Source: Phycisphaerales bacterium
Lineage (GTDB): Bacteria; Planctomycetota; Phycisphaerae; Phycisphaerales; SM1A02
Assembly (NCBI GenBank): GCA_030748575.1
Contig: JASMLR010000003.1
Span: forward strand, 186,001 to 250,000
Length of the DNA stretch: 64,000 bases
Reading direction: 5' to 3'
Part shown: piece after piece, positions 3,075 to 64,000 of the stretch
How the letters are laid out: each line of letters opens with the position of its first letter
How positions within the stretch are numbered: the first letter of the stretch is position 1
The notes under the pieces: model-generated
Seen by the model: the letters and a program-made list of their open reading frames with translations, nothing else
Database searches by the model: none
What the model was told of the DNA's origin: nothing
Program-made: the position numbers and the translations under genes

Positions 3075-3697
3075 GCCTGCCGGAAGGCTTCACGCTCGCT
3101 GACATGGACGCGTTGCCGGACAACCCGGTGGACGCGGTCCATGGATGGCTCGAAGAAGCAACCCGGTTCTCCGGGCGGCCAAACCCGCACGCCGTGGTGC
3201 TTGCGACGTGCGGGGCCGATCAGCAGCCCGCTGCCCGCATGATGCTGCTCAAGGGATTCGATGCGCGTGGGGCCGTGATCTACACGAACCTGCAGAGCCG
3301 AAAGGGGCTTCAGATTGGCGAGAATCCCCGCGTGGCGCTGCTGCTGCATTGGGACGTGCTGGGGCGACAGATTCGGGTCGAAGGTGAAGCCACCCGGGTG
3401 AGCAGGGAAGAAGCCGACGCGTACTTTGCCTCCCGGCCATGGGGCAGCCGAATCGGCGCGGTGGCCAGCGATCAATCCCGGCCGCTGGAGAGCCGGGATG
3501 CGTTGGCAGCGCGGGTGGTCGAGGTGGCGCTGCAGTACCCCCTCGGGTCGGACGTGCCCCGGCCCGAGTACTGGACAGGCCTCCGGGTGTCCCTGGCGCG
3601 GGTCGAGTTGTGGCAGGAGGGCGATGACCGGCTCCACGACCGCATCGTGTATCGACCCTCGGGCGAGGGGTGGTCGACCGAGCGGCTCTGGCCGTAG
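3071..3697 (+). CDS. pdxH: Pyridoxamine/pyridoxine 5'-phosphate oxidase
   Basis: PdxH uses FMN and oxygen to make pyridoxal 5'-phosphate from PNP or PMP. The 208-residue length is typical. The FMN/substrate segment RMMLLKGFD and YTNLQSRKG (about residues 56-78) and the C-terminal signature WQEGDDRLHDR (about 180-190) are clear, and the protein ends in the usual RLWP-type tail. The start ATG overlaps the purE stop, so it is likely read from the same transcript. It converges on the NYN-domain gene with a four-base gap. Confidence 0.95.
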   Translation: MSLPEGFTLADMDALPDNPVDAVHGWLEEATRFSGRPNPHAVVLATCGADQQPAARMMLLKGFDARGAVIYTNLQSRKGLQIGENPRVALLLHWDVLGRQIRVEGEATRVSREEADAYFASRPWGSRIGAVASDQSRPLESRDALAARVVEVALQYPLGSDVPRPEYWTGLRVSLARVELWQEGDDRLHDRIVYRPSGEGWSTERLWP

Positions 3698-3701
3698 AGG
3701 A

Positions 3702-4361
3702 TCAGACGTCGCCGGCAATCCGCCGCGCCTGCTCGAGCACCTCGGCTGGGAAGTGAGTCTTGGGCGTGTCCTGCGGCGGGTCCAAGCCCGCGTCCTGACC
3801 CGCATCCTGGCCCCCGGGGGAAGGCGATGATTCGGCTCTGGGGTGCCCGTCATCAGGCAGAAACGCATCCAGATCGGCCGCCTCCGCCTCGGCCGCGATG
3901 GCGTCGAGTTCCCCATCGCTCAGGGCGAACTCCGAGGTCCAGTCGTCAGCGGCGGGCGGTGCGGGCTGGTCCGGGGCGGTACCGCGGGCGATGTCTTCCA
4001 GCATCGTCCGCAGGAATGATTCTGAGTCCAACCACTTGCACCGCCTGCGTTTGGCGGCCTTTCGGAGCCGCCGGTCGGTGGAGACCACCAGCACGCGGCG
4101 TGGATCCGCCGCCTTTCCGATCATGTCCTCAATGAGATCGTCTGCCTCCCGCCCTGGGCCGGACCACATGACGTGAATCGGCTCTGGGAGCCCCTGAGGG
4201 CGGGGTTGGGGCCGCCCGTCGCAGACGAGCACCGCGTGGGCGGCCTGCCATCGGGTGGCCTGCATGAGCCGGCCCAGCCCCGAGAGGCTCAGGCCAGCCA
4301 GCCCAGGCGGCAGAACACCCTGGATGTGCAGCACATTCCATGCGTCCACGATCACCTTCAT
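3702..4361 (-). CDS. NYN-domain (YacP-like) protein, putative RNase
   Basis: The N-terminal ~120 residues form a PIN-like NYN domain of the YacP type, a family linked to RNA processing. The strand MKVIVDAWNVL carries the first acidic residue, GREADDLIED the middle acidic pair, and VVSTDRRLRKAAKRRRC the conserved SxD-type segment. The last ~100 residues are acidic and Pro/Gly-rich, probably disordered. I place the start at the ATG at 4361 because an AGGGTGGGA purine run sits just before it; a GTG three codons upstream (4370) is the alternative. The substrate is unknown. Confidence 0.85.
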   Translation of the reverse strand: MKVIVDAWNVLHIQGVLPPGLAGLSLSGLGRLMQATRWQAAHAVLVCDGRPQPRPQGLPEPIHVMWSGPGREADDLIEDMIGKAADPRRVLVVSTDRRLRKAAKRRRCKWLDSESFLRTMLEDIARGTAPDQPAPPAADDWTSEFALSDGELDAIAAEAEAADLDAFLPDDGHPRAESSPSPGGQDAGQDAGLDPPQDTPKTHFPAEVLEQARRIAGDV

Positions 4362-4457
4362 GAATCCCACCCTATAGCACCGAATGGCTTGCCATGGGCG
4401 CTTCTTTCCGCTCTAATGCGCGGCTCGAAATCCCCCTGAGGAGGGTTCTATCAGGTC

Positions 4458-4736
4458 ATGGCTATTCGGATCAAATCCCGGCACGGCGAGTCTGTCAATC
4501 AGATGCTTCGCCGCTTCAAGAAGCTCTGCGAGAAGGAAGGCCTCACGAAAGACGTGAAGCGGAAGCAGTACTTCGAGAAGCCCTCGGAACGTCGCCGCCG
4601 CGCCATGCGCAAGGCGATTGCTCGAGTGGCTCGATTGAATGACCCACAGCCGCAGCCCGCCCCGAAGGGGAAGCGCGGTGGCCCCGGAGGCAACCGCAGC
4701 GGCGGTGGTGGTGGTGGTGGCGGCGGACGCCGCTGA
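4458..4736 (+). CDS. rpsU: 30S ribosomal protein S21 with poly-Gly tail
   Basis: S21 binds the small subunit near the 16S 3' end and helps initiation. The first ~65 residues are a canonical S21: basic, with FKKLCEKEG, a KRKQYFEKPSERRRR core and an arginine-rich helix. It then departs from the usual 60-70 residues with a ~25-residue tail dominated by glycine and ending in RR. AGGAGG lies 13 bases upstream of the ATG, rather far for a Shine-Dalgarno site. It stands alone upstream of hppA with about 120 bases between them. Confidence 0.95.
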   Translation: MAIRIKSRHGESVNQMLRRFKKLCEKEGLTKDVKRKQYFEKPSERRRRAMRKAIARVARLNDPQPQPAPKGKRGGPGGNRSGGGGGGGGGRR

Positions 4737-4864
4737 GTTCCCATGCATACGACTCGAGGCGGTCACGCAGTGATCGCGTCACGTACACCTTTTTGGAATC
4801 GATCGGTTTTCAACGGGCGATCGGTGTCTGTCGACATCGATGCGACGACTGAGGAGTGAGATTC

Positions 4865-7489
4865 GTGAACACGTTGCTTCTTTCCACAAATGACGTCCAG
4901 GGCGTCAACGCCATCATCGAGCATGCCTGGGTGTGGTTCATCGCCCCGATCGGCGCCGTGCTCGCGCTGCTCGCTGCGTTCGCATTCAGCCGCAATGTCA
5001 TGAGCCGGAGCGAAGGTGAGCCGGAGATGATTCGGATCGCTGAGGCCGTCCGGCAGGGTGCCATGGCGTACCTGAAGCGACAGTACAAGGTCGTCTTCGT
5101 CGTCTTTGTCGTGCTGGTCGGCATTCTCATTGCTCTGGGATTCCTCGGCATTCAGCCGAAGGTGACTGCGATCGGTGTGCCGATCGCCGGCCTCTTCTCG
5201 GGGCTCTGCGGCTGGTTTGGCATGAAGATGGCCACCAATGCCTCGGCGCGAACGACCTTCGCCGCCAAGCAGTCGCTCAACGATGGCCTCACTGTGGCCT
5301 TCCGCAGTGGTGCCGTGATGGGCCTGGTGGTCGTGGGCTTTGCCCTGCTTGACGTCAGCGCCTGGTTCCTGATCTGGAACGCTTTCTTCCCGGAGCAGTC
5401 GCTTGAGCTGACCACTGCCGTCATGTTGACGTACGGCATGGGTGCCTCGACGCAGGCGCTCTTTGCGCGTGTGGGCGGCGGCATCTACACCAAGGCCGCC
5501 GACGTCGGCGCGGACCTCGTCGGCAAGGTCGAGGCTGGCATTCCCGAGGATGATCCCCGCAATCCGGCGGCCATTGCCGACAACGTGGGTGACAATGTCG
5601 GCGACGTCGCAGGCATGGGCGCCGACCTCTACGAGTCCTACTACGGATCCATTCTCGCCTCGATGGCGATTGGTGCCACGGCCGCCTTTGCCGGTGGTCT
5701 CGGGGCCGGCTGGGCGATGAAGCTTGCTGCGGCGCCCATGGCGCTTGCGGGCATCGGCATCATCTGCTCGCTGCTGGGCGTGTTCATCGTGCGGGCCAAG
5801 GAAGGCGCGTCGTTCAGTCAACTCCTCAAGGGGTTGCACATGGGCGTCTGGTTCGCCTCACTGCTCGTCACGGCGGGCGCCGGCGTGCTGTTCTGGCTCC
5901 TGCTTGGTGACGGCGAAGGCGTCTTCGCCTGGTGGCAGCCCTGGCTTGCGATCATCACCGGTCTCGCCGCCGGCCTGATCATTGCGTTTGCAACCGAGTA
6001 CTACACCTCATACGAGCACGCTCCCACGCAACGCATCAGTGAGCAGACGCAGACCGGACATGCCACCGTCATCATTGCCGGCATCGCCGAGGGCATGAAG
6101 TCCACGTGGGCGCCGCTGGTGGTGATCGTTGCCGCCATCCTCCTGGCGTTCGGCTTCAGTGGCGGTTCGGACAACTTCCTGCTCGGTCTCTACGGTGTGG
6201 GTATCGCCGCTGTCGGCATGCTCTCGACCCTTGGCATCACGCTGGCGACGGACGCGTACGGGCCGATCGCTGACAACGCCGGCGGCAACGCTGAGATGAC
6301 CGGACAGCCGTCGTTCGTTCGCGAGCGAACGGACATGCTCGATTCGCTTGGAAACACGACCGCCGCGACCGGCAAGGGCTTTGCCATCGGTTCGGCTGCG
6401 TTGACGGCCATGGCGCTGCTCGCCGCATACGCGATTGTCGTCAAGGGATCTGTGGTCGAGAAGCTGTCCGTGAGCGACCCCTCGGAGATTGCGGCTCACG
6501 TCTCCGAAGCACCCGGTTTCGCAAGTCCGAAGATGGAGTCGACGCTGGCTGCTTCCGGCGACCACACGCTTCACCTGACGTACCACGGCCATGGTGAGTT
6601 CAAGATGGTCGCCGAGGCCGGCGATCATGTCGCCGCAGGCGGCGGACTGTTGCTTGCGTCGAACGCGGTCGCGCTCGGTGTTGGCAACCTCTTCGAAGAC
6701 GGTAAGACGGTGACCGCAACTGGCCACTGGGACAGCCTCGCGGGCGAGTATGACGTCACGGCGGAGGGCGTGAGCTTTGATGTCGTCCCTGCAGACAAGG
6801 CGTCGCTTCAGCACATGGCGGCGTTCTATGACATCTCCATCATGAATCCCCGCGTTCTCGGGGGACTGTTCCTCGGCGTGATGCTCGCCTTCGTGTTCTG
6901 CGCGATGACGATGAACGCCGTGGGCCGAGCCGCCTATCGGATGATGGGCGAGTGTCGTCGTCAGTTCAAGATGATGCGGGACAAGTTCAAGGCCGATGGC
7001 ATGTCCGAAGAGGACGTCTCTGATCCGATGAAGTGGCCGACTCGCGTCGAAATCAACGGCGTTGAGTATCCGGACTATCAGGAGTGCGTCTCCATCTCGA
7101 CTGCCGGCGCGCAGCGGGAAATGGTGATCCCCTCGCTTCTGGCCATCGTGACGCCCATCCTGGTCGGCCTCGTCCTTGGTGTCGGCGGCGTCATGGGACT
7201 GCTCGTCGGTGGCCTGACCAGTGGCTTCGCGGTCGCCATCTACATGGCGAACGCAGGCGGCGCCTGGGACAACGCGAAGAAGTACATCGAGGCTGGCCAT
7301 CACGGCGGCAAGGGATCCGATGCTCACAAAGCTTCGGTGACCGGTGACACCGTTGGCGATCCCTTCAAGGACACCTCGGGTCCGTCCCTCAACATCCTCA
7401 TCAAACTCATCGCGATCGTTTCGGTGGTGTTTGCCGGCCTGGTGGTCCACTTCGGCCCGACTGTGCAGGCAGCATTCGGACTCGGCTGA
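4865..7489 (+). CDS. hppA: Membrane-bound pyrophosphatase, K+-dependent type, with large insert
   Basis: This integral-membrane enzyme hydrolyses pyrophosphate and pumps H+ or Na+. The catalytic signatures DVGADLVGKVE (about residues 213-223), DNVGDNVGD (239-247), DAYGPIADNAGGNAEM (463-478) and GDTVGDPFKDTSGPS near the C-terminus are intact. The AATGKG sequence in the helix starting near residue 500 has the alanine typical of K+-dependent enzymes rather than the lysine of K+-independent ones. At about 874 residues it is far longer than the usual 660-770. The excess is mainly a ~125-residue hydrophilic, beta-rich stretch (about 527-655) between two membrane helices, plus a longer loop near 700-735. 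I chose GTG 4865 because GAGGAG ends eight bases upstream; an in-frame GTG at 4856 is possible. The pumped ion cannot be settled by eye. Confidence 0.95.
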   Translation: MNTLLLSTNDVQGVNAIIEHAWVWFIAPIGAVLALLAAFAFSRNVMSRSEGEPEMIRIAEAVRQGAMAYLKRQYKVVFVVFVVLVGILIALGFLGIQPKVTAIGVPIAGLFSGLCGWFGMKMATNASARTTFAAKQSLNDGLTVAFRSGAVMGLVVVGFALLDVSAWFLIWNAFFPEQSLELTTAVMLTYGMGASTQALFARVGGGIYTKAADVGADLVGKVEAGIPEDDPRNPAAIADNVGDNVGDVAGMGADLYESYYGSILASMAIGATAAFAGGLGAGWAMKLAAAPMALAGIGIICSLLGVFIVRAKEGASFSQLLKGLHMGVWFASLLVTAGAGVLFWLLLGDGEGVFAWWQPWLAIITGLAAGLIIAFATEYYTSYEHAPTQRISEQTQTGHATVIIAGIAEGMKSTWAPLVVIVAAILLAFGFSGGSDNFLLGLYGVGIAAVGMLSTLGITLATDAYGPIADNAGGNAEMTGQPSFVRERTDMLDSLGNTTAATGKGFAIGSAALTAMALLAAYAIVVKGSVVEKLSVSDPSEIAAHVSEAPGFASPKMESTLAASGDHTLHLTYHGHGEFKMVAEAGDHVAAGGGLLLASNAVALGVGNLFEDGKTVTATGHWDSLAGEYDVTAEGVSFDVVPADKASLQHMAAFYDISIMNPRVLGGLFLGVMLAFVFCAMTMNAVGRAAYRMMGECRRQFKMMRDKFKADGMSEEDVSDPMKWPTRVEINGVEYPDYQECVSISTAGAQREMVIPSLLAIVTPILVGLVLGVGGVMGLLVGGLTSGFAVAIYMANAGGAWDNAKKYIEAGHHGGKGSDAHKASVTGDTVGDPFKDTSGPSLNILIKLIAIVSVVFAGLVVHFGPTVQAAFGLG

Positions 7490-50500: not shown

Positions 50501-51472
50501 TCAGTTGGGCAGGTCGTCTTCGGTGCGGAACTCCAGCACGCCCGGAAGCAACTTCTGCTGCAATTGGCGGAGTTCCGTGCAATCAAAGATGACGCGGTGA
50601 CTGTCGAGCGTTTCCACAAGATCCGGGGTCGTGATGGGCATCGACTGGGTTGATCCGTCCATGTGGGACAGGTTGATGCGGGTTGGATCCCACAGCCCCG
50701 GCCGGTCGTACCACATCTGAAAGTTTTCGTACGCGCCCACCTGCTGATTCGGGTGGAGCAGGAAGCCATTGAAATTGCGACCTGGCGGGTGCCCGGACTC
50801 TCCGGGGTCATCTTCGGCAATGGAGCACATCGTTCGACTGGGCTGCTTGACGCCCATCATCGTGGGGCAGCCAACGGCGTAGATGATGAAGTCGCCGCCG
50901 AACGGATCCAACGGGCTTCCCTGCGCAAAGTAGGCGTCATCAGCGCAGACGTTGACGCCTACAAAGGCGTTGAGCGAGTAGGAGCGAAGCCGATTCGTTG
51001 GGTCCAGTGGAGACCGATACACGTCAAGGTTGCCGTCGAGATACTCCCAGGCGGCGCCATCAGAGAGCGCCGCGGGTCGTTCAGCCGAAATGGACGCGCC
51101 GTCCAGTGACTCAAGCCGCTGCGCCGATGGGTCGTTGTAGGCGCGTACCCACATCCGCTCCCGCGCGTCCTCGGCCAATTGCCCCGGGGTCTTGCCGGCC
51201 AGGTCGTAGTTCGGGTCGGAGTCCATGAAATCGAATTGTGCGTCGTCAGGCTCCGTGCGGGGGTGGAGGAGGCGAGAGTCGTTCGCTGCGGCGTACTGAG
51301 CGTCCGCCAGCGCGATCTGCCGCTGGTGCGCAAGGTCCGCAGACGACATGGCTGCCGCGTCAAGACTCCGGGCCCCGACGAGCACAATGGCCGCCAGGAT
51401 GGCGAGAATCGCGACAACCGCCATCAATTCCACGATGGTGAACCCGGAACGATTGAATGTGAGTGGCTTCAT
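50501..51472 (-). CDS. Prepilin-type leader protein
   Basis: The 323-residue protein has a short prepilin leader, NRSGFTIVELMAVVAILAILAAIVLVGARSL, with Gly before Phe (cleavage) and Glu at +5. The mature portion is large and without recognised domains; it has DGAAWEYLDGNLDVYRSPLDP and a C-terminus with HMDGSTQSMPITTPDLVE, the kind of sequence seen in Planctomycetota pseudopilins. It is convergent with lat (2-base gap) and its start overlaps the stop of the GH13 gene (ATGA), which suggests a link to secretion of glycan enzymes. Confidence 0.78.
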   Translation of the reverse strand: MKPLTFNRSGFTIVELMAVVAILAILAAIVLVGARSLDAAAMSSADLAHQRQIALADAQYAAANDSRLLHPRTEPDDAQFDFMDSDPNYDLAGKTPGQLAEDARERMWVRAYNDPSAQRLESLDGASISAERPAALSDGAAWEYLDGNLDVYRSPLDPTNRLRSYSLNAFVGVNVCADDAYFAQGSPLDPFGGDFIIYAVGCPTMMGVKQPSRTMCSIAEDDPGESGHPPGRNFNGFLLHPNQQVGAYENFQMWYDRPGLWDPTRINLSHMDGSTQSMPITTPDLVETLDSHRVIFDCTELRQLQQKLLPGVLEFRTEDDLPN

Positions 51473-53481
51473 GGGCAGCTGCCGAAGGCTCCGATTATCG
51501 CCAGCAGATCGTTGACATCCGTCTGGCCGTCGCCAGTTACATCCGCATCTGGAGTGCCCCAGGATGCGATGCAAGTGAGAAGATCGTCGACATCGACGGC
51601 ACCACTGCCGTCCAGGTCGCTTGGGCAGGACGGCGACTGGGAAAAGATGACCATCGAGTATGCGCCGAATCTGATGGACGCGCTGTAGGGAAGTCCGTCC
51701 CAGGGGATATTCTCAACCACCACATCATCCGTCAGGTGGTCGCCGAATTCGGCGTCATAGCCAGTCCAATCGCTGTTGAAGCGGGCCTTCCACGTGCCTC
51801 CCTGCGGGAAGCCGATTCGATAGTCGTCCCACGTCTGGTTCTTGAAGTTGGCCAGCACGATGACGTCGTCCCCCGCACCGCCGCTCATCCAGCGGTGCCA
51901 TGCGACGACCTTGTCCCAGTCGTTGACGTGATGGACGTTTACGTGCTCGCCTGTGAGGCCACGTGTGTTGCCCTGCCGGTTGAGGCGGAGGTCGATGAGG
52001 TCGCTGTAGAGCCAGGTCAGCCCTTCATAGGTTGCTGCTCGATCCCAGTCGAGTGGGACCGCGTCCGTGAACCACTCGTCTTCAAGGAACTCCTGCCCCT
52101 GGAAGATCATCGGGATTCCCGGGGCCGTGAATACGACGCCGGCGGCGAGGGTGGACCGCTTTTTGGAATAGTAGGAGTCGGCGTTGCCGGGCCAGATCGC
52201 CTCGGGAACGCGGCTGCGGCCATTGGCGACTTCGTCGTGCGACTCGGTGTAGATCACCCGCTGCAAGGGCGAACCGTTGTAGGCGAAGGTGATTGCATCC
52301 TTGATGGTCCACATGCTCCGCGCGCCGTCGTCTGCCTGCTCGACAACCTCTCGAACCGGGTGGACGAACGATGGATCCCATTGGGCATCAAAGCCGGCGC
52401 CGCCGACGCTTGTCGGCTTGGTGATCCAGTGGTTGCTGCTCATGTCCTCGGCTGTGATCAACTTCTCTGGGTACAACGTGTCGAGCTCGTCGTTGATCCA
52501 CTGCATCCAGGACCACCCGTCCGGGTTGTTCCCGGCGTCGGTCCACTCGATCCACCGAGTGCCGTCCATGCGGATGCCGTCGATGCGGTACTCCTCGAAC
52601 CACTGGAGGACTGCGTCCCGTAGCCACTGCCGAACGGCGTTCTCCCCGAAGTTCGGGCGTGTGTCGCCCCACGGCGTGTACGCCCGGTCATCGTTGTAGA
52701 AGTAGATTCCCCCGAGGTCATTCTCATGCCAGCCGTCGAACTGCCAGCTGCCGAGGTCTGAAGGTCCAAGGTGATTGAAGACGACATCGACGAGCACCGC
52801 GATCCCCCGTTCATGGCAGTCATCCACCAACTGCTTGAACCCCTCGGGGCCGCCGTAGTAACTCTCGACCGAGAAGATATGCCCGGGGTTGTACCCCCAG
52901 GACTGGTCGCCGGCGAACTCGTTGATGGGCATGAACTCGATCGCATTGACACCGAGATTGGCGAGGTGGTCGAGATGGTCTCGCACACCTTCAAAGTTGC
53001 CCGGGAAGGCGCCGCCGTCCGTCACGCCGAACGTTCCGGGATGCAGCTCATAGATGACCATTTCGTTCCAGTTGTGCATCTGGAAGTCGTTCTGCCAAGG
53101 AAACTGGTCTGGATTGATGATGACCGAGGTGCCATTGGAACTGGTCAACTTGCGGGCGCGAGGGTCGTTGCGCCAGTGTGTGTTTCCATCGTTAAGAATG
53201 ACGAATTGGTACTCGTGGCCAGCCCAGACCCCGGGGACGTCGAGACTCCAGAGGTTGTCGCCCTCGTTGACAAGCGGGTGGCTGTTGGTCGACCAGCCGT
53301 TGAAGGACCCGGTGACATAGACCGCCTCTGCGTGCGGTGTCCACGTGCGAAATGTCGTGCCCCAGCCACCATCATCCTGATACACCGAAGCGCCCATGCC
53401 AGGTCTGGACGAAGCTTCGCCTGCCATCGCTGGAGCAGCGAGGAGAGATGCGGCGAACACAAACTGAACAAAGCAGCGCAT
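51469..53481 (-). CDS. Exported GH13 alpha-glucan enzyme with CBM48 and dockerin-like tail
   Basis: The 670-residue protein has a signal peptide (first ~20 residues, AMAGEA), then a CBM48-like N-terminal module (FRTWTPHAEAVYVTGSFNGW, about residues 44-63) and a GH13 barrel. Catalytic residues are visible: nucleophile Asp in DGIRMDGTRW, acid Glu in LITAEDMSSNHW, transition-state Asp in YTESHDEV. The layout resembles branching or debranching enzymes, but the specificity is not settled. The last ~45 residues carry two EF-hand-like dockerin repeats, DLDGSGAVDVDDLL and DVTGDGQTDVNDLL, ending CP. It overlaps the prepilin gene by four bases. Confidence 0.88.
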   Translation of the reverse strand: MRCFVQFVFAASLLAAPAMAGEASSRPGMGASVYQDDGGWGTTFRTWTPHAEAVYVTGSFNGWSTNSHPLVNEGDNLWSLDVPGVWAGHEYQFVILNDGNTHWRNDPRARKLTSSNGTSVIINPDQFPWQNDFQMHNWNEMVIYELHPGTFGVTDGGAFPGNFEGVRDHLDHLANLGVNAIEFMPINEFAGDQSWGYNPGHIFSVESYYGGPEGFKQLVDDCHERGIAVLVDVVFNHLGPSDLGSWQFDGWHENDLGGIYFYNDDRAYTPWGDTRPNFGENAVRQWLRDAVLQWFEEYRIDGIRMDGTRWIEWTDAGNNPDGWSWMQWINDELDTLYPEKLITAEDMSSNHWITKPTSVGGAGFDAQWDPSFVHPVREVVEQADDGARSMWTIKDAITFAYNGSPLQRVIYTESHDEVANGRSRVPEAIWPGNADSYYSKKRSTLAAGVVFTAPGIPMIFQGQEFLEDEWFTDAVPLDWDRAATYEGLTWLYSDLIDLRLNRQGNTRGLTGEHVNVHHVNDWDKVVAWHRWMSGGAGDDVIVLANFKNQTWDDYRIGFPQGGTWKARFNSDWTGYDAEFGDHLTDDVVVENIPWDGLPYSASIRFGAYSMVIFSQSPSCPSDLDGSGAVDVDDLLTCIASWGTPDADVTGDGQTDVNDLLAIIGAFGSCP

Positions 53482-54833: not shown

Positions 54834-56930
54834 TCAGGCCGAGTGAGCCGCTCGATATCCCCATTCAAGGTACTCAGCAAGCATGCGGTGGCTGGAGAAC
54901 TGCGGATTGACGGTGGTGGCCGACCGAAGGGCCATTCGAATCCACTTGGATGGGAGGTCCTTGGCGGTTCGGGCATAAAACGTAGGCACCACCAGCCGCT
55001 CGAGCGCGTCATAGAGGGCGGAGGCGTCCGCGGCGTCTCGGGCGGCGGCCTTCAGCCCCTCCGCCTGGCCGTCGATCGTCCAGCCGTTCCGCCCATCGGC
55101 GGCCTCGGGCCACCACCCGTCGGCGATGGAGAGATTGAGCCCGCCGCTGAGCGGGCCCTTCATGCCACTGGTGCCGCTGGCTTCGTGCGGTCGGATGGGC
55201 GTGTTGAGCCAGACATCGCACCCCGCTGTCAGGACCCGGCCCAGTCCCATGTCGTATTCCTCCAGAAGAACCACCCTGCCCTGGAGCCCGGGCCGCTGGC
55301 ACATGGCATGGATGGTCCTGGCATAGGCCTGCCCCGGCTGATCCAGCGGATGCGCCTTGCCGGCGAACAGCACCTGCACCGGGCGGTCGGCATCCTCCAG
55401 AATGGCCTGCAGCCGCGAGAGGTCGTGAAAGAGCAGTGGGGCTCGCTTGTAGGTCGCGAACCGTCGGGCAAACCCGATGGTGAGGGCGTCCTGCCGCAGC
55501 GCTGTCCGCGCTCGTTCAATGCCGGCTGCGTCTTCTCCGCGGCGGCGGGCCTGCGCGACCAGCCGCTCGCGAGCGACCTGAACCAGGCGTGCGCGCAGCG
55601 CTCCACGCAGCGCCCAGAAGCGGGTGGGGTCCACGCCCGCGGCCTTCTTCCATGCCGCGCCTCGAGGCCCGGGCCTGCCGGGCCGGAGCCCGATTTCTCG
55701 TCGCCAGAAGTCTGCCGCCAGCGGCGGCATCCATGTCCCCGGGTGTACGCCGTTGGTGATGTGGTGAATCGGAACATCCGCGGCTTCGCAGGCATAGACG
55801 TCCTTCCACATCTCGCGGCTCACCTCCCCGTGCAGGGAGGCGACGCCATTGACGCGGCGAGCCAGCCGAAGGGCGAGTACCGTCATGCAGAGAGGCCCGT
55901 CGCTGCCACCTTCCTGCCCGAGCTCGGCCAGATCACGCTTCCGCATGCCGGCGCGGCGCAGGGTCGGCCGGACGACTTCGGCGGCGCGTGCCAGGTCGTA
56001 TCGGTCGTGGCCGGCCGGAACTGGCGTGTGGGTGGTGAACACTGTTTCGGCGGCCGTCTGGCGAATGGCCACATCGAGCGCGGTGCCACCTTCGACGCGA
56101 GCGGCAATCCGCTCCAGACCGCAAAAGGCGGCATGCCCTTCATTGAGGTGCCACACGGTCGGGCGGAGTTTCAGGGCGCCAGCAGCGCGTACGGCGCCAA
56201 TGCCGAGCAGGGCCTGCTGCCGCAGGCGGAGATCCGGATCACCGCGATACAGCCCCTGGGTCAGTTGGCGATCCCGCATGCGGTTGGACGGCAGGTCGGT
56301 GTCCAGCAGGTACAGGGTGCAGCCGCCGATCGTCATACGCATGACACGCGCATCGACCACGCTGCGGCCGACGGGGCACTCGATACGCGTGCCGGTGTCG
56401 TCGATGGGCAGATCGCCAAAGTCCCACTGAGGTTCGACGACTCGGGTCGATCCATCGCTGCGGAATTCCTGCTGGTAGTAGCCCTGGCGGTAGAGCAGTC
56501 CGAACCCGGTCAGGGGAATGCCCAGGTCGGCGCAAGACTTCAGGTGATCGCCGGCCAGGACGCCCAGGCCGCCCGAGTACTGCTGCATGCATTCGTGTAC
56601 GGCGAACTCCGAGCACACGTACGCGATGCACATGGACCGCTCGGTGGTGTGCCGAGCCCGGTCAAACCACTTTTGCCGGGCATCATCCTTGTCTCTCGCC
56701 TCCTGGGCGGCGCGGAGCACCCGCACAAACGATCGTTCATTGAGCCGAGTCTGCAGGTAGGCATCGTCTGTGGCGCGGAGGACGGCGAGGGGGTTCTCAT
56801 TGGATGCGATCCACACGTCGGGTTGCAACATGGCGAACGGCCGCCGCATGGGCTCGATCCACGTCCAACGCAGATCCATCGCCAACGCCCTTAGAACAGC
56901 CCGCGCTACAGCAACCGTCATCGCTTTCAT
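54834..56930 (-). CDS. glgP: Alpha-glucan (maltodextrin/glycogen) phosphorylase
   Basis: The enzyme releases glucose-1-phosphate from alpha-1,4-glucans with PLP. The ~698-residue protein has the compact form (TIGR02094-like) rather than the ~800-residue classical one. Visible family segments are YSGGLGVLAGDHLKS (about 125-140), VWHLNEGHAAF, ITNGVHPGTWMPP, ARRFATYKRAPLL and VWLNTPIRPHEASGTSGMKG, which holds the PLP lysine. The ATG at 56930 leaves ~20 residues before the first family motif; a start at 56957 is also open. It follows the palindrome array. Confidence 0.94.
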   Translation of the reverse strand: MKAMTVAVARAVLRALAMDLRWTWIEPMRRPFAMLQPDVWIASNENPLAVLRATDDAYLQTRLNERSFVRVLRAAQEARDKDDARQKWFDRARHTTERSMCIAYVCSEFAVHECMQQYSGGLGVLAGDHLKSCADLGIPLTGFGLLYRQGYYQQEFRSDGSTRVVEPQWDFGDLPIDDTGTRIECPVGRSVVDARVMRMTIGGCTLYLLDTDLPSNRMRDRQLTQGLYRGDPDLRLRQQALLGIGAVRAAGALKLRPTVWHLNEGHAAFCGLERIAARVEGGTALDVAIRQTAAETVFTTHTPVPAGHDRYDLARAAEVVRPTLRRAGMRKRDLAELGQEGGSDGPLCMTVLALRLARRVNGVASLHGEVSREMWKDVYACEAADVPIHHITNGVHPGTWMPPLAADFWRREIGLRPGRPGPRGAAWKKAAGVDPTRFWALRGALRARLVQVARERLVAQARRRGEDAAGIERARTALRQDALTIGFARRFATYKRAPLLFHDLSRLQAILEDADRPVQVLFAGKAHPLDQPGQAYARTIHAMCQRPGLQGRVVLLEEYDMGLGRVLTAGCDVWLNTPIRPHEASGTSGMKGPLSGGLNLSIADGWWPEAADGRNGWTIDGQAEGLKAAARDAADASALYDALERLVVPTFYARTAKDLPSKWIRMALRSATTVNPQFSSHRMLAEYLEWGYRAAHSA

Positions 56931-56959
56931 GGGCCGCGAAGCATACCGCCCACCCACAA

Positions 56960-57201
56960 CCGACCGCCGGCCACTTTATCTCCATATGCCACAGGCACTT
57001 ACGAAGAAGTGACCGCCGGTCACTTTATCTCTTTGTGCCACAAGCACTTCCAAAGGCAGTTTTCCTGTGGCCTTTGGGAGAGGAAGCGAAGAAGTGACCG
57101 GCGGTCATCTGGCCTCTCTATCTTCTTGTGTAGCAACCGCTTATGGAAACGCGGTTTTGGCGGCTTCTGTGGGCCGCCACGCGGAAGTGACCGGCGGTCA
57201 C
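56960..57201. repeat. Array of four near-identical 15-bp palindromes between malQ and glgP
   Basis: Four copies of the palindrome GTGACCG(C/G)CGGTCAC lie at 56960-56974 (degenerate), 57009-57023, 57094-57108 (last base changed) and 57187-57201. The second and fourth copies extend to a 19-bp AAGTGACCGSCGGTCACTT form. Copies one and two are each followed by a similar ~30-base stretch (TTTATCTC, then TGCCACA-GCACTT), and the third more loosely. The fourth spans the malQ stop. Candidates are a set of operators or a dispersed repeat. Confidence 0.75.
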
Positions 57202-58571
57202 TTGGGCTGCGGGGGGAAGGTGGGGGCTGCGTCTTTGGGGAGCCGCCATCGCCAGTTGCCGCGGGGGATTCCCGGGCGATTCATGCGGGCAGCGGCGCCC
57301 AGGCCCAGGAGGTCCTGCATGGGGATGATGCGGAGCCTGGCCGGGGATTGCAGGCATGCCGCAACCATCGCCGCCGGCGCGCCGGCCGCGTGGCGGCAGC
57401 CCGTGGCCGCTGCGAATCGCCTGCGGGCGTCCTTGGGAAGTGATCGATACCAGCCTGCAACCGTGTCATTGTCGTGTGTGCCCGGGTAGCACACGCTGTT
57501 GACCGGATGGTTGGCCGGCGCGTCCGGGCTGTCGTCGCGATACCAGCCCCACTGCGCGATCCGCATGCCCGGAAGATGGAAGTCATCTCTCAGACGGCGA
57601 ACCGCGGGCGTGACCGCGCCCAGGTCCTCGGCAATGAACGGCAGGCGGCCCAGCGCATCCTGAAGCGTGTTCAGAATGGCCCGGCCCGGCGTGCGCCGCC
57701 ACACACCCCGCCGCGCCGTCTTGGCGCGAGCTGAGACTTCGTAGAGGCGGACGAAGCCGATGAAGTGGTCGATGCGAATCGCGTCGAACAGCGTCGTTGC
57801 CCGCTGAAACCGATCAACCCACCACCGAAAGTTCTCCTTTCGGTGGGCGGCCCAGTCATAGTGCGGATGCCCCCACAACTGCCCGTGCGGGCAATAGTCG
57901 TCCGGAGGCACACCCGTGACGACCGTTGGGCCGCCCCGCCGATTCAACCTGAAGAGATCCGGTCGCATGCGAACGTCGGTCGAATCGGCGTGCACAAAGA
58001 TGGGCACGTCACCAATGAATCCAACGCCCCGCCTTGCCGCATGGGACCGAAGTCGCATCCACTGCCAGTGCAGGATGTACTGAACGAACGCATGCTCGGT
58101 CGGATCGCCTGACTGGTCCTCGCACCAGTCATCAAGCCAGTGTGACTGCTCGGCACAGAAGCGGCGAAACGCGGCTCGGCGCAGGCCGCCCTTCGAGGCA
58201 AACCGTTCATAGGCGGCTCGAAGGAGAGGCATCTTGAAACGCGACACTTCGCGGAAGCGCACAGGCCCGTCGCGAAGTGCCGCAGGGGCGCGAAGGGCAG
58301 ACTTCGGGAGCAGACCGTCGGAACACAGGTCTTCAAGACTCGCCAGCAGCGGCTCAAGGGCAAAGGCGCTTCGGCCTGAGTAGGGCGAGTTGCCCAGACC
58401 GATGGGATTGATGGGGAGCACTTGCCAGGCTGACACGTGCTGAGCCCGGCACCAGTCAGCGAAGGCCCGTGCCGCCGGGCCGAAATCGCCTATGCCATGG
58501 GGGGCGGGCAAACTCGTGATGTGCATCAGCACGCCTCGCCGGCGGCCAGTCAGCACATCCACGCTGGTCAC
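57198..58571 (-). CDS. malQ: 4-alpha-glucanotransferase (amylomaltase)
   Basis: MalQ (GH77) rearranges maltodextrins, producing glucose and longer chains for glgP. The 457-residue protein has GVLMHITSLPAPHGIGDFGP at the N-terminus, DAIRIDHFIGF with the nucleophile Asp, FIAEDLG with the acid Glu, and GTHDNDT with the third Asp. The start is taken as GTG 58571 because it overlaps the stop of the GH13 gene (GTGA), and the N-terminus then matches the family. The next gene on the strand is glgP, after the palindrome array. Confidence 0.92.
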   Translation of the reverse strand: MTSVDVLTGRRRGVLMHITSLPAPHGIGDFGPAARAFADWCRAQHVSAWQVLPINPIGLGNSPYSGRSAFALEPLLASLEDLCSDGLLPKSALRAPAALRDGPVRFREVSRFKMPLLRAAYERFASKGGLRRAAFRRFCAEQSHWLDDWCEDQSGDPTEHAFVQYILHWQWMRLRSHAARRGVGFIGDVPIFVHADSTDVRMRPDLFRLNRRGGPTVVTGVPPDDYCPHGQLWGHPHYDWAAHRKENFRWWVDRFQRATTLFDAIRIDHFIGFVRLYEVSARAKTARRGVWRRTPGRAILNTLQDALGRLPFIAEDLGAVTPAVRRLRDDFHLPGMRIAQWGWYRDDSPDAPANHPVNSVCYPGTHDNDTVAGWYRSLPKDARRRFAAATGCRHAAGAPAAMVAACLQSPARLRIIPMQDLLGLGAAARMNRPGIPRGNWRWRLPKDAAPTFPPQPK

Positions 58572-60928
58572 GGCGCCGTCCAGACGATCCCACCCGTCGG
58601 GGGAATGGTGACGCTGGGCCACGAGGCCGCGGTGGGTGGGCTCGATGCAAAGACTTCGGTCCACTCGGCTCCCAGCGAGGACGGAAGCACAACTTCGGCT
58701 GCCTCGTCGCCCGCATTGAGGGCTACGAGTACGCGGTCATCCTCAAACTCCCGAAGGAAGACCCACACATCCTGCGCATCATCAAGCACGATGGTCTCAA
58801 TCGTTCCACGTCGCAGCGCAGCGTGAGACTGCCGAAGGGCGATCGCCTTGCGATAGAAGTCCAGGTGGTCGGGCATGATCCGCATGTCCGGGTCGTCGTA
58901 GGGCTGCAGGTCTTCCCAGAGCATCGGCTTGCGGTTGTTCGGGTCGTCGCTTCCCCACATGCCCGCTTCGTCTCCGTAGTACACCATGGGCGCCCCGACG
59001 TAGGTCATCTGAAGGAGCGCCGCGAGCCTCGCCTTGTCGTACGCCCATGCGGGCGGCTTGCCGGCCTTGTAGTCCTCGACCTCCTGCTCCCGATTCTGGG
59101 CGTCATAGGGGCGGTCCGGGTTGTAGACCTTGGACACGAGCCGGTCGGTGTCGTGGCTGTCCAGGAGGTTTTGCAGCACATAGGTCGCGGCGTCCGGGTA
59201 GGCCAACCGCAGCCGGGCGAACTGTCGTTCGGCCTCGGACGCCGAGATCTTGCGTTCGTTCCCGGTAATCCAGTCCAGCGTGACTTCAGCAAACGGGTAG
59301 TTCATGACGGCGTCGAAGGATCGGCCATCAAGCCAGTGCTCGGCCCTGTCCCAGATCTCGCCAACGATGAGCGCGTCCGGGTTGATCGACTTGACGTGCT
59401 TTCGCCACTCGATCCAGAAGGGGAGCGGAACTTCATTCGGCACGTCCAGTCGCCACCCGTCAATGCCGTCGGAGGGATCGCCATCGCCGTCCGGATCCAT
59501 CCATCGCCTGGTGATCTCCATGATGTGTTGCCGCACCGACGCGCTGGCAAGGCCGTGTTCGTCGTTCTTGGCGAACACCGGAAGCTCACCGAAGCCCGCC
59601 CAGCCCTCATAGTCGAACGGCTCCCAGGACTTCACAGCGAACCAGTCGGCGTACTCGGATGCCTTGCCGCGTGATTGCACGTCACGGAAGGCTGGATGCC
59701 GCGTGCCGACGTGGTTGAACACGCCGTCGATGATGACTCGGAACCCCATCGCCTTGGCTTCACGCAAGAAGTCGAGAAACGCGAGGTCACTCTCGGTCCA
59801 TGACCACGTGGATGCATCGGCCGGTTGCTCGGCCGCTTCTGCTGCGGTGTAGTCCAGACCGCCACCGTAGTGCTCATCGATATGCACAAAGCTCGTGGCG
59901 TTGTACTTGTGGTGACTCTCGGACTGAAAGACTGGATTCAGATAGAGGGCGTTGATGCCCAACTCCCTGAGGTATCCAAGCTTCTCCCGAAGACCAGCCA
60001 GGTCGCCGCCGTACAGACGAGAGAACACGTACCAGTCATAGAAGCCTTGTCCATCCTCGCCTTCATTCAGGGCGGGCGCATACCAGTCTGAGGTCCACGC
60101 CCGTCCGGGCTGTGGATCCGTCTGCGGATCGCCATTTCGGAACCGGTCGACCATGATCTGATACCAGACGGCGTCGCGGGCCCAATCAGGTGTCTCAAGG
60201 TGCATCGAAGTCTCGCTGAATCTGTAGATATGGGGGCTACGCTGCGTCGCCGCCCCGTCGTGAATCAAAAACGTGTATCGGTCATCGCCCTGCGGGATCG
60301 GAACGGTGACCTCCCACCACTGAAATCGTCCGTCGTCCAGGACGGGGCGCGTCGGGGTCGATCCAATCCACGGCTGGGCCAGAGACACGGCGTCCACATC
60401 TCCGGCGAGCGTGCGCATTCGGAGCGTGCGATTGTCCGGGCCTCCGGCAGAATCACTCCATTGCTCGGGGAAGTGATTGACCGCAGCCCCCTCGATGCGT
60501 TCATCGCCTCGACGAGCGGTCGAGGGATCGACGTTTGCTGCAGGTCCGAGGCGGAGCACGGAGTTGTTACCACCGTGGCCATCGTGCTGGCGGTCCTGGT
60601 TCTGCGGGTCCGCCATCCAGTTTCCGTCAACGACGTACTTGTACCACCGGACGCCAGGCTCCAATGGGACGGTGACCCGCCACGTGCCGCCATGGAGTGT
60701 CATTGGAGTGGCTGTTGGATTCCAGCCGTTGAAGTCGCCGGCGAGCATCACCTCGTCCGCATCGGCATGCCCATTCAGGGCAAACCGGCAGATCCACCGT
60801 TCGCCCCGGTCATTGGCGGAGACCGAGGGTGGCAGCGAGGTCCGGGTGGAAAGGCCCGGCTCAACGATGGGAAGCGCGGGGGGCCAGCCGCCGAGCGTGA
60901 TCGAGAGCAGGAGCGGTACAAGCGTCAT
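58568..60928 (-). CDS. Exported GH13 glucosidase/neopullulanase-like enzyme with CBM48-type N-terminus
   Basis: The ~786-residue protein has a hydrophobic leader (VPLLLSITLGGWPPALPIV), an N-terminal module (VMLAGDFNGWNPTATPM near residue 60) like CBM48/CBM34, a second similar module, and a GH13 barrel beginning near VWYQIMVDRFRNGDP. Catalytic residues are in DGWRLDVPNEV (Asp), ALIVGEIWDRAE (Glu) and LLDSHDTDRL (Asp). It fits the cyclomaltodextrinase/neopullulanase/maltogenic amylase group. It is coupled to malQ by a four-base overlap, and its start is divergent from the importer gene. Confidence 0.88.
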   Translation of the reverse strand: MTLVPLLLSITLGGWPPALPIVEPGLSTRTSLPPSVSANDRGERWICRFALNGHADADEVMLAGDFNGWNPTATPMTLHGGTWRVTVPLEPGVRWYKYVVDGNWMADPQNQDRQHDGHGGNNSVLRLGPAANVDPSTARRGDERIEGAAVNHFPEQWSDSAGGPDNRTLRMRTLAGDVDAVSLAQPWIGSTPTRPVLDDGRFQWWEVTVPIPQGDDRYTFLIHDGAATQRSPHIYRFSETSMHLETPDWARDAVWYQIMVDRFRNGDPQTDPQPGRAWTSDWYAPALNEGEDGQGFYDWYVFSRLYGGDLAGLREKLGYLRELGINALYLNPVFQSESHHKYNATSFVHIDEHYGGGLDYTAAEAAEQPADASTWSWTESDLAFLDFLREAKAMGFRVIIDGVFNHVGTRHPAFRDVQSRGKASEYADWFAVKSWEPFDYEGWAGFGELPVFAKNDEHGLASASVRQHIMEITRRWMDPDGDGDPSDGIDGWRLDVPNEVPLPFWIEWRKHVKSINPDALIVGEIWDRAEHWLDGRSFDAVMNYPFAEVTLDWITGNERKISASEAERQFARLRLAYPDAATYVLQNLLDSHDTDRLVSKVYNPDRPYDAQNREQEVEDYKAGKPPAWAYDKARLAALLQMTYVGAPMVYYGDEAGMWGSDDPNNRKPMLWEDLQPYDDPDMRIMPDHLDFYRKAIALRQSHAALRRGTIETIVLDDAQDVWVFLREFEDDRVLVALNAGDEAAEVVLPSSLGAEWTEVFASSPPTAASWPSVTIPPTGGIVWTAP

Positions 60929-60979: not shown

Positions 60980-63340
60980 GTGACTGCCGGTCGACACATG
61001 GCGACCGCGCTCCGCGGTCTCTTGGCGGGTGTTGCGGTGCTCCTGGTGGTGTGGGCGTTCACGTGGGTGGCAGCTCGGGCCTTTCGCGGCGGCGGCGGGG
61101 ACCGCATTGTGCTTCGGGTGATGCACTGGAGCGGGGGGGGTGGGCAGCAGGAAGACGAGATCGTTGAGGCGTCCCTCGACGCCTTTGAGGCATCCCATCC
61201 GGGGATCGACGTGCAGCGAATCAACCCGGGTGACTCCGGTCAGTTCTTCACCAAGCTTCAGACCATGATGGCTGCTGGTGAACCGCCAGACGTGTTCTAC
61301 ATGGACTACGCGCGGCTCCCTGTCTATGTTCGCGAAGGCCAACTCGCCAACATCGAAGCCGTCGCCTCTTCGGGCGGACAGTTTGACCTTGCGGACTTCT
61401 ACGCCCCGGCCGTGGATGCTTTTCGATGGGACGGCGAGCGGACCGGCGCAGGTCCCCTGTGGGGCGTCCCGAAGGACTTCACAACCGTTGGGTTCTACGT
61501 CAACCTCGATGTCCTTGAGCGTGCCGGCGTAGCGAGGCCGTCGCCTGACTGGACCTGGGACGACTTCATCGAGACGGCAACGGCGATCGGCAGGCTCGAC
61601 GGCGTTTCGGGTGCTGAGGTCGTGACGTGGCCATTCGTGCTGCGATCGATGCTCTGGACGGAGGGGGTCGACGTTGTCGGCGAGGACTGGTCGGACCTGC
61701 GGGTGACCGACCCGGATGTCCAGTCCGTCCTGCGTCGACTGCAGTCCTGGCGATTTGACCAGCAGGACGCGTTGGTATCAGCAGAAGCGGAGGGTGTTGA
61801 CCCGTCGTCGCTCTTCCTGACAGGTCGCATTGGCATGGTGGGTCCGTTCGGGAGATGGGTCGTGCCGTCCTTTCGGAGCATCCCCGCACGCGAGGCAGGT
61901 GGGTTCGACTGGGATTTCTTCCCGCTGCCGCGGGGGCAAGAGCGGGCCAATGTCATCGCGACGGTCGCGTGGTCGATGGCCGCAGACACGAAACATCCCG
62001 ATGAAGCATTCGAGTTGCTGCAGTGGCTCGTGTCCGAAGACGTTCAGGCCCAGCAGTCACGGTTGGGGTTGGCGATTCCCACTCGGCGAAGCGTCGCCGA
62101 GTCAGATGCCTTCATCGACCCAGACATTCCTCCAGCAAGCGATCGCGTGTTTCTGGACGCAGTCGAGGTTGCCCGCGTTCCACACTGGCCGGCCGATCCT
62201 GCCTTCGCGGACCAGTTTGACCGTCGTCTCAACAGGGCGCTTCGCGGAAACCACGACCTGAACGCGGCTACGGAAGGCCTCCACACGTGGTGGCAAAACC
62301 GGCTGGAATCTCCGCTCACCGTCGGGGTGTTCCCGAGAATGCCCTGGTGGGGGATCTGGAGCGTGACTCTGGGGCTCGTATGTGTGGCGGCAGTCGTGAT
62401 GGCATTCCGTCTGCGCCGCGGCGGGCGTGACCGGGCTGCGAGGCGGGAAGAACGCGCCGGGTGGGTACTTGCGTCTCCCTGGATGATCGGGTTTGCGGCG
62501 TTCCTCGCCGTGCCAATCGTGCTCTCACTGCTGCTGTCGTTTACGCGGTGGGGTGGGATCGGTCCGGTGGAGACCGCGGAGTTCGTCGGCGCAGCCAACT
62601 ACGCCCGCATGCTCACGGAGGACGACACGTTTCGACGCAGCCTCTGGGTCACCGTGTGGTACGCGGTGCTTGCGGTGCCGACCGGGCAGGCATTTGCATT
62701 GCTCGCCGCGCTTCTGCTGAACATGAAGGTGAAGGGTGTTGGGTTGTATCGGGCGGCCTGGTACCTCCCGAGCGTGCTCGCGGGAGTTGGCATCGCAGTG
62801 CTTTGGCAATGGGTCTTCAAGAGTGAGGGCGGCCTGATGAATGCCGTGCTTGAGCCCTTGCTCCGGCCGCTCGGTCTGGAGCCGCCCGAGTGGTTTACAA
62901 GCGACGCGGCCACCTGGGGTGTTCCGGCGTTCGCCATCATGAACTTCTGGATCGTGGGCGGCAGCATGCTCGTCTATCTTGCGGGACTGCGAAACATTCC
63001 CGCCGAGCAGTACGAGGCTGCGGCCATTGACGGCGCCCGCGGTTGGAGACGCTTCCGGAGCGTCACGCTTCCCATGCTCTCTCCGGTCATTCTCTTCAAT
63101 GTCATTATGGCGATCATCGGGTCGTTTCAGGTCTTCACGCAGGCCTTCGTTATGACCTCCGGAGGCCCCGGCGACGACACCCGCTTCTACGTTCTCTACC
63201 TCTACAACCTTGCCTTTGACGTCTACGAGATGGGATACGCCTCTGCGCTTGCCTGGGTCCTTCTGCTGGTCGTGCTCGCGCTCACCGCAGCCACACTGCG
63301 ATTCGGGGGCCGCAAGGTCTATTACGAGGGCATGGCATGA
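60980..63340 (+). CDS. Fused sugar-binding protein and ABC permease (MalE-MalF/UgpB-UgpA-type fusion)
   Basis: The 786-residue protein joins two normally separate ABC importer parts. Residues ~40-445 are a type 1 sugar solute-binding protein (VLRVMHWSGGGG, DVFYMDYARLPVYV, WGVPKDFTTVGFYVNLDVLERAG, AFLSVL-type closing helices), tethered by an N-terminal membrane helix at about 12-34. A second membrane helix near 457-477 leads into a MalF/UgpA-type permease of six helices (about 495-780) with the EAA loop EQYEAAAIDGARGWRRFRSVTLPML at about 676-700. GTG 60980 is used (AGAGG upstream); ATG 60998 is possible. The TGA overlaps the next permease (ATGA). Confidence 0.9.
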   Translation: MTAGRHMATALRGLLAGVAVLLVVWAFTWVAARAFRGGGGDRIVLRVMHWSGGGGQQEDEIVEASLDAFEASHPGIDVQRINPGDSGQFFTKLQTMMAAGEPPDVFYMDYARLPVYVREGQLANIEAVASSGGQFDLADFYAPAVDAFRWDGERTGAGPLWGVPKDFTTVGFYVNLDVLERAGVARPSPDWTWDDFIETATAIGRLDGVSGAEVVTWPFVLRSMLWTEGVDVVGEDWSDLRVTDPDVQSVLRRLQSWRFDQQDALVSAEAEGVDPSSLFLTGRIGMVGPFGRWVVPSFRSIPAREAGGFDWDFFPLPRGQERANVIATVAWSMAADTKHPDEAFELLQWLVSEDVQAQQSRLGLAIPTRRSVAESDAFIDPDIPPASDRVFLDAVEVARVPHWPADPAFADQFDRRLNRALRGNHDLNAATEGLHTWWQNRLESPLTVGVFPRMPWWGIWSVTLGLVCVAAVVMAFRLRRGGRDRAARREERAGWVLASPWMIGFAAFLAVPIVLSLLLSFTRWGGIGPVETAEFVGAANYARMLTEDDTFRRSLWVTVWYAVLAVPTGQAFALLAALLLNMKVKGVGLYRAAWYLPSVLAGVGIAVLWQWVFKSEGGLMNAVLEPLLRPLGLEPPEWFTSDAATWGVPAFAIMNFWIVGGSMLVYLAGLRNIPAEQYEAAAIDGARGWRRFRSVTLPMLSPVILFNVIMAIIGSFQVFTQAFVMTSGGPGDDTRFYVLYLYNLAFDVYEMGYASALAWVLLLVVLALTAATLRFGGRKVYYEGMA

Positions 63341-64000
63341 CGCCGCATGTCACATGGCGATGGCTGCGGCACGTTCCGCTCCTGCTCGGCGCGGCGCTCA
63401 TGCTCTTCCCCCTCTGGTGGATGCTTGTTGTGAGCCTGGAGACAGAGCAACGCGCCGGAATGGCGATGGTGGCCGGCGACGTCCTGAACGTGTGGCCCGA
63501 AGATCCACAGTGGCACAACTACACCGACGCCATGCGGGACGTTGGTTCGACACCGTGGATCGCGTTTCTCGATGCCCTTGCCAACTCGATCGTGGTCACA
63601 GTTTCGGTGATCGTGGGAACGGTGCTTTCGTGCAGCCTGGTGGGCTTCGCCTTCGCGCGAATCCGCTTTCGTGGTCGGGGCGGCATGTTCCTCCTCATGC
63701 TCGCCACCATGATGCTTCCTGCCCAGGTCACGATGATTCCGCTCTTCCTCTTGTTTCGATCACTTGGGTGGGTCGATACGCTGCTGCCGCTTATCGTGCC
63801 TGCGTTCTTCGGTAGCGCGTTCAATATCTTCCTGTACCGACAGTTCATTGCAGGCATTCCGGAGGCGCTGCTGGAGGCTGGTCGCATGGACGGTCTGGGA
63901 TGGCTCGGCCTCTGGTGGCGGATCGTGCTTCCACTCTGCAGACCGGTGACGGCGATTGTGGCCGTGTTTTCATTCATCTATACGTGGAATGACTTCATGA
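63337..64000 (+). CDS. Sugar ABC transporter permease, MalG/UgpE-type (3' truncated by window edge)
   Basis: The gene encodes the second permease of the importer. Its ATG overlaps the stop of the fusion gene and it is open to the end of the window (221 codons seen). It has a first membrane helix LLGAALMLFPLWWMLVVSL (about residues 15-33), an outer loop, then a region with GTVLSCSLVGFAFARIRFRG and MLPAQVTMIPLFLLF. The EAA-type loop EALLEAGRMDGLGWLGLWWRIVLPL (about 176-200) follows and then the next helix. Length, motif and place fit MalG/UgpE. An ATPase gene is expected further downstream but is not in the window. Confidence 0.93.
   Translation, partial: MTPHVTWRWLRHVPLLLGAALMLFPLWWMLVVSLETEQRAGMAMVAGDVLNVWPEDPQWHNYTDAMRDVGSTPWIAFLDALANSIVVTVSVIVGTVLSCSLVGFAFARIRFRGRGGMFLLMLATMMLPAQVTMIPLFLLFRSLGWVDTLLPLIVPAFFGSAFNIFLYRQFIAGIPEALLEAGRMDGLGWLGLWWRIVLPLCRPVTAIVAVFSFIYTWNDFM

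Follow-up and report, generated by a model that had tools for sequence, protein, structure and literature searches.

The analysed window, a 64,000-nucleotide stretch of the genome of a Phycisphaerales bacterium, encodes near its end what we consider, with a probability of about 0.8, to be part of a complete CUT1/MalFGK-type maltodextrin importer whose binding protein precedes the MalF-type permease in the same chain, fused to its N terminus, and is present as a single captive domain. The fusion itself is genuine. The frame at 60980-63340 (+) has no internal stop across its 786 codons, and its product carries both an SBP_bac_1 domain (residues 59-357, 130 bits against a Pfam cut-off of 26) and a BPD_transp_1 domain (residues 589-769, 50 bits, cut-off 26.4). 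According to the NCBIfam comparison, the permease half is nearest to UgpA, GlcT and MalF, with scores below the equivalog cut-offs. An earlier note on this DNA had described a sugar-binding domain and a MalF-type permease in one continuous frame, a membrane anchor on the binding domain and a second permease overlapping the stop of the fused gene. All of this was borne out, as a hydrophobic segment is present at residues 14-32 and the next permease gene starts at 63337 with a 4-base overlap. The coordinates of the fused gene, its parts and its neighbours are given in Table 1.

Table 1. Features of the importer locus and of the adjoining alpha-glucan genes. Positions are those of the window, except where preceded by L002, a stretch of the same genome that continues beyond the window.
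Feature	Position	Strand	Remarks
Alpha-glucan phosphorylase	54834..56957	-	
4-alpha-glucanotransferase (GH77, MalQ type)	57198..58664	-	
GH13 alpha-amylase-type enzyme, divergent	58568..60928	-	AMPK1_CBM/CBM_48 matches; likely start ATG 60928
Gap between divergent start codons	60929..60979	.	51 bases; presumed two-way promoter
Fused MalE-MalF type gene	60980..63340	+	786 aa, GTG start; alternative ATG at 60998 (residue 7)
N-terminal hydrophobic helix TM1	61013..61081	+	Residues about 12-34, motif R-x2-L-x3-A-x2-LV-x-WAF-x-RV-x2-R
Solute-binding domain	61109..62299	+	Residues about 44-440
Short conserved linker	62300..62347	+	Residues 441-456, ...SPL.....P.MPW
Connecting hydrophobic helix TM2	62348..62413	+	Residues about 457-478, sequence poorly conserved
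UgpA/MalF-type permease core	62456..63337	+	Residues about 493-786
MalG/UgpE-type permease	63337..64000	+	First 221 of 288 codons; ends beyond the window (L002:2838-3704)
MalK-type ATPase	L002:3707-4813		After the MalG type; ABC_tran, OB_MalK and TOBE_2 above cut-offs

Occurrence of the fusion in other genomes

The same domain order, which the earlier note had proposed to look for in other genomes, was found at full length and free of stops in 21 of 61 genomes (the window's own and 60 relatives), the proteins of the 20 other genomes being 43-80% identical to that of the window. In one further genome of the 61 the fused locus (L019) is cut by a contig end. Within the genus, five of the eight other genomes have the fused protein, the one with the contig-cut L019 being counted among the five, and in the remaining three, which are 91-97% complete, there was no match at E up to 0.001. 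Such a distribution bears directly on the idea that assembly or sequencing errors had joined two separate genes. The genome is available as an assembly in 85 contigs, given as 97% complete, and the start codon of the fused gene is GTG, but the same stop-free fusion in 20 of 60 other genomes and in named records from several projects, together with the conserved linker and the presence of the connecting hydrophobic segment, leaves an artefact with a practically negligible probability. It was rejected as contradicted by the fused relatives, and because the fusion was kept free of stops in related genomes, a sequencing or chance accident is excluded.

In a sample of 392 genomes from across the phylum, the fused form is present in at least 33, 27 by a match that spans both domains in one frame and six by a domain scan of the fetched loci; the count is a lower bound, two candidates having been scored per genome. 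A fusion was counted only if the match covered both domains or if both domains lay in one frame. A long open frame alone was discarded as proof of fusion, as illustrated by L143, in which an 822-residue frame runs round the permease and the binding protein is in another frame. One genome that has the main form also carries a second, very divergent fused binding protein and permease (L152, G049:C24:115500-121500).

Outside the survey of the phylum, 26 of the 80 named loci listed, which were ranked by likeness to the query, are fused according to the domain scan; all 26 records are MAGs, and their individual taxon labels may be wrong. Eleven of them are near the window's protein and have planctomycete labels, one being Candidatus Kuenenia, and five have Armatimonadota-type labels. 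The other ten are labelled, one each, Fermentibacteria, Hinthialibacteria, Nitrospiraceae, Calditrichaceae, Verrucomicrobia, Gemmatimonadetes, Kiritimatiellae, Bacteroidetes, Sumerlaeota and 'bacterium'. The record labelled Candidatus Kuenenia stuttgartiensis (L056) lies among the close relatives of the window, and its label or binning may be wrong.

It was suggested in the earlier note that the fusion suits a cell with an unusual periplasm. The distribution does not support this link, since fused loci are also labelled Armatimonadetes, Verrucomicrobia, Gemmatimonadetes and Calditrichaceae, among others, whereas 22 fetched loci from the window's own phylum have a permease without a binding domain in frame and three of the eight congeners have no match at the threshold given above. 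In the 40 listed loci labelled Bacillota, Actinomycetota or Chloroflexota no fusion was seen (L083 is cut at a contig end), which gives only a hint as regards the periplasm. GlnPQ is described in the literature as a fused importer from Gram-positive bacteria.

Descent of the fusion

The clade of the window, as read off a permease tree, comprises 48 rows. These rows form one side of a branch with an SH-aLRT of 99 in the permease tree (151 rows, 72 fused and 79 separate), and the same 48 rows form one side of a branch, also with an SH-aLRT of 99, in the binding-domain tree (144 rows, 72 fused and 72 separate), which provides an independent check. The duplicates L060 and L063 were removed before the trees were built, and the contig-cut L019 was dropped before the permease tree was repeated. 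No separate-gene row falls inside the clade, and its one non-planctomycete fused row is L064, which is Fermentibacteria by label. Because the 48 rows form one clade in both trees, the binding domain and the permease have most likely stayed together since one joining event.

Other fused rows lie outside this clade, in groups of 15, four (Armatimonadota) and two rows and as three singles, and for this reason several independent origins of the fusion are likely. The fused or separate label changes seven times on the permease tree, with three changes forced by starred branches, and eight times on the binding-domain tree, with five forced; these figures come from quick trees without bootstrap that have several long branches, the fused L149 and L152 among them, and they do not give the direction of change.

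Partner subunits and completeness of the importer

The permease that follows the fused gene has UgpE/MalG type as its best NCBIfam match, below the curated equivalog cut-off, and its BPD_transp_1 domain scores above the cut-off. The domain scan found no binding domain on it. Together with the MalK-type ATPase, the locus has the features of the CUT1/MalFGK class: a family-1 sugar-binding domain, two unlike permeases and a MalK-type ATPase with an OB/TOBE domain. All the subunits that are usual for an importer of this class are thus encoded, and ATP-driven uptake of a sugar is predicted. Since the MalG-type partner has no binding domain of its own, the expected stoichiometry would be one binding domain per importer, in line with what the earlier note had proposed. 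An opposed FIST gene lies beyond the ATPase gene, and past it, downstream of the importer genes, is a squalene-hopene cyclase gene (L002:6362-8497); in L153 and L170, which are congeners, both genes likewise lie close to the importer.

A search of the genome with PF01547 returned three matches, the fused gene included. The other two scored 36 bits (above the cut-off) and 20 bits (below it), both are better matched as SBP_bac_6, and both weakly resemble binders of the 2-aminoethylphosphonate type, below the NCBIfam cut-offs. This search of the genome, whose stated completeness is 97%, yielded no other sugar-binding protein of the SBP_bac_1 type. The result is relevant to the proposal that free binding proteins feed the same permease, the fused domain acting as a docking or sensing module. 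At the stated completeness a free protein could be missing from the assembly, but the better SBP_bac_6 scores of the two further PF01547 proteins and their weak likeness to phosphonate-type binders speak against it, and we regard such a module as very improbable. A 569-residue SBP_bac_6 protein, which is long for a binding protein, is encoded elsewhere in the same genome between pyrF-like and cinA-like genes (L174:900-2606).

Gene neighbourhood and substrate

The fused gene is divergent from a group of genes for alpha-glucan enzymes, the nearest of which, the GH13 enzyme, has a signal-like N terminus as judged by eye. Another GH13 protein, which has CBM_48 as well as an amylase C-terminal domain, is encoded beside this cluster (51469-53481, minus strand); relatives of it occur near the fusion in L153, L157, L158, L161, L169 and L170. 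The neighbourhood was surveyed in 31 related loci, which represent 29 distinct ones (two pairs share a contig), the window's own locus being excluded. In all 29, the MalG type adjoins the fusion. One or more of the enzymes GH13, GH77 and phosphorylase lies near it in every case, with GH13 in 27, GH77 in 23 and phosphorylase in 21. Twenty of the 29 also have a MalK type on the same strand; the other nine have no adjacent match, in L055 because the contig ends, and in L055, L061 and L159 some neighbours are absent because the contig or the fetched stretch ends there. The four loci of the deepest sub-clade (L063/L164, L163, L165 and L166) gave no match for GH77, phosphorylase or an adjacent MalK, and all have a GH13 gene immediately upstream of the fusion and on its strand. 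The phosphorylase of L167 (G051, 3057-5161) matches as two adjoining pieces and is possibly a split or frameshifted gene.

Comparison of the binding domain with known structures gave sugar-binding proteins as the top structural matches. The VIA Z scores were 36.7-43.6 among the 50 matches listed, which include binders of maltose, cycloalternan and acarbose as well as UgpB and binders of beta-glucosides and dinucleotides. By sequence, the best PDB match is AbnE (6rjy), a binder of arabino-oligosaccharides (2.5e-37), and the second is Lmo0181, described as a cycloalternan-bound protein. With UgpB and the beta-glucoside, dinucleotide and arabino-oligosaccharide binders among the matches, the fold alone does not fix the sugar. 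These two best sequence matches would fit an importer of another oligosaccharide, such as an arabino-oligosaccharide, a cyclic alpha-glucan or similar. Cycloalternan, however, is itself an alpha-glucan, and the constant presence of at least one alpha-glucan enzyme at the 29 loci, with GH13 at all four loci of the deepest sub-clade, makes a different sugar unlikely. Maltodextrin is most likely the substrate, a view that is drawn from the neighbouring genes and favoured because GH13, GH77 and phosphorylase recur there.

Helices and predicted topology

The hydrophobic segments of the fused protein are at residues 14-32 and 458-476, followed by those of the permease part. The structure was modelled with AlphaFold, as the earlier note had advised, and a fairly confident model was obtained (mean pLDDT 83.8, pTM 0.76; low-confidence stretches at residues 37-39, 268-272 and 596-600). 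In the model, a long N-terminal helix (2-36) precedes the binding domain, a helix at 456-480 follows it and the permease helices come last. It is established that the C terminus of a binding protein is outside and the N terminus of a permease is inside; a direct fusion of the two therefore needs an odd number of extra crossings of the membrane. The single connecting segment that was observed fits this requirement, and TM2 presumably returns the chain to the inside. When a hydrophobic segment was defined as a 19-residue stretch with a Kyte-Doolittle mean of 1.6 or more, 73 of 74 fused proteins had exactly one between their halves (the 74 include L060 and L063, exact duplicates of L014 and L021); the exception, L089, has none. 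By the same scan, none of 72 separate binding proteins has such a segment in its C-terminal tail. Of 80 separate permeases, three have one upstream, and one of these three is the contig-cut fused locus L019.

TM1 and the connecting helix differ in their conservation, which was scored over 31 of the 35 close members. TM1 has a mean of 0.57 over residues 12-36, with R33 in all members, V30 in 97% and F27 in 87%, and the connecting helix a mean of 0.29. The conservation of TM1 tracks one face of the helix (as strong in 15 of 5000 shuffles, or 24 of 5000 by entropy), whereas the connecting helix has no conserved face (1124 and, by entropy, 1183 of 5000). Of two control helices in the permease core, the first has a conserved face (8 of 5000, and 5 by entropy) and the second a weak one (273 and 219). 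All of these shuffle figures are indicative, the rows being related by descent. Because its conservation follows one helical face, TM1 appears to be retained and packed against something, which suggests that it is not a cleaved signal peptide.

These results also concern the possibility that one chain is made and then cut, so that the binding protein is set free and the permease is left in its normal form. The poor conservation of the connecting helix would allow for this, and some distant fused relatives (L042 and several others) have N termini that look, by eye, like signal peptides or lipoboxes. A released product, however, would not require the connecting segment that nearly all fused proteins have and that the tails of separate binding proteins lack, and TM1 has a conserved face; cleavage is accordingly given a low probability.

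For the intact, uncut protein, the following course of events is envisaged. The chain would start inside with TM1 as an anchor helix, the binding domain would be placed in the periplasm, and one added helix would bring the chain back before the permease core, with the membrane sides taken from the known topology of the two halves. The MalG and MalK types would complete the importer. The captive domain would then close on its sugar and dock on its own permease pair, with no arrival by diffusion, and the neighbouring GH13, GH77 and phosphorylase enzymes may make and use maltodextrin. A bolder proposal, which we put forward tentatively and think doubtful in its full form, is that both ends of the binding domain are clamped: TM1 would be a retained helix whose conserved face lies on a membrane partner (the permease core or MalG) and would position the domain over its own translocator, the importer would work only with its captive domain, and such fusions would have arisen several times, each gaining one topology-inverting helix.

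Comparison with known systems

A maltose/maltodextrin importer with a single MalE fused to MalF is reported to have been characterised by Licht et al. (2019, Res Microbiol 170:1-12; cited in PMC9045158 and PMC7756565). A review that refers to this paper and to one other states that a MalE-MalF fusion is competent for transport (PMC7756565). The protein of the window thus extends a known MalE-MalF fusion design and is not unprecedented. The earlier note was right that fused forms exist, but the glycine betaine and glutamine families that it named as examples are an incomplete list, the sugar case having already been characterised. As in that importer, a single binding domain is on the MalF subunit, and none is on the MalG type here. 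The characterised importer is reportedly that of Bdellovibrio bacteriovorus to which PDB 6ffl belongs. The 6ffl entry, the MalE domain of this bacterium with maltotriose, is among the Foldseek matches of the fused-protein model (6ffl_A, rank 27, E 2.2e-16, 17% identity); it shares the fold of the binding domain but is absent from the 60 listed of the domain's 75 sequence matches. In the open-licence literature, searched by title and the start of the abstract, no description of a planctomycete case of this fusion was found among the matches listed.

In the E. coli maltose system, the binding protein is separate and diffuses, and MalF has a large P2 loop. Residues 535-774 of the fused protein align with residues 258-507 of MalF, and MalG and MalK types follow as in MalE-MalFGK2, but here the binding domain is covalently joined to the MalF-type permease. 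Nothing like the P2 loop appears in the model, in which about 30 residues lie between the helices at 485-519 and 549-581. Separate-gene relatives in the phylum (for example L026, L027 and L050) encode homologues of the permease and of the binding protein in frames next to each other; they differ in having two genes and no connecting hydrophobic segment on the binding protein. In GlnPQ and OpuA, the binding domains are also linked covalently to the permease, as described in the literature (PMC8025302, PMC11065425). GlnPQ is presented there as a homodimer with two tandem binding domains per chain (PMC8025302), and OpuA as using two binding domains (PMC11065425). By contrast, the importer of the window has two unlike permeases, of which only one has a binding domain, and rather than identical fused chains with two or four domains, a distinct domainless second permease is encoded next door.

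Implications

With the fusion design already known, the remaining interest lies in how broad the lineage is, in the recurrence of a single connecting helix and in the conservation of one face of the anchor helix. Binding proteins are as a rule more numerous than their importers; in E. coli, the maltose binding protein is stated to outnumber the importer 30- to 50-fold (PMC9045158). A widespread lineage with one captive domain per importer would offer a natural experiment on the purpose of the free pool. Moreover, the relatives with and without the fusion, which is marked by one added hydrophobic helix, may provide material on how often and when tethering pays.
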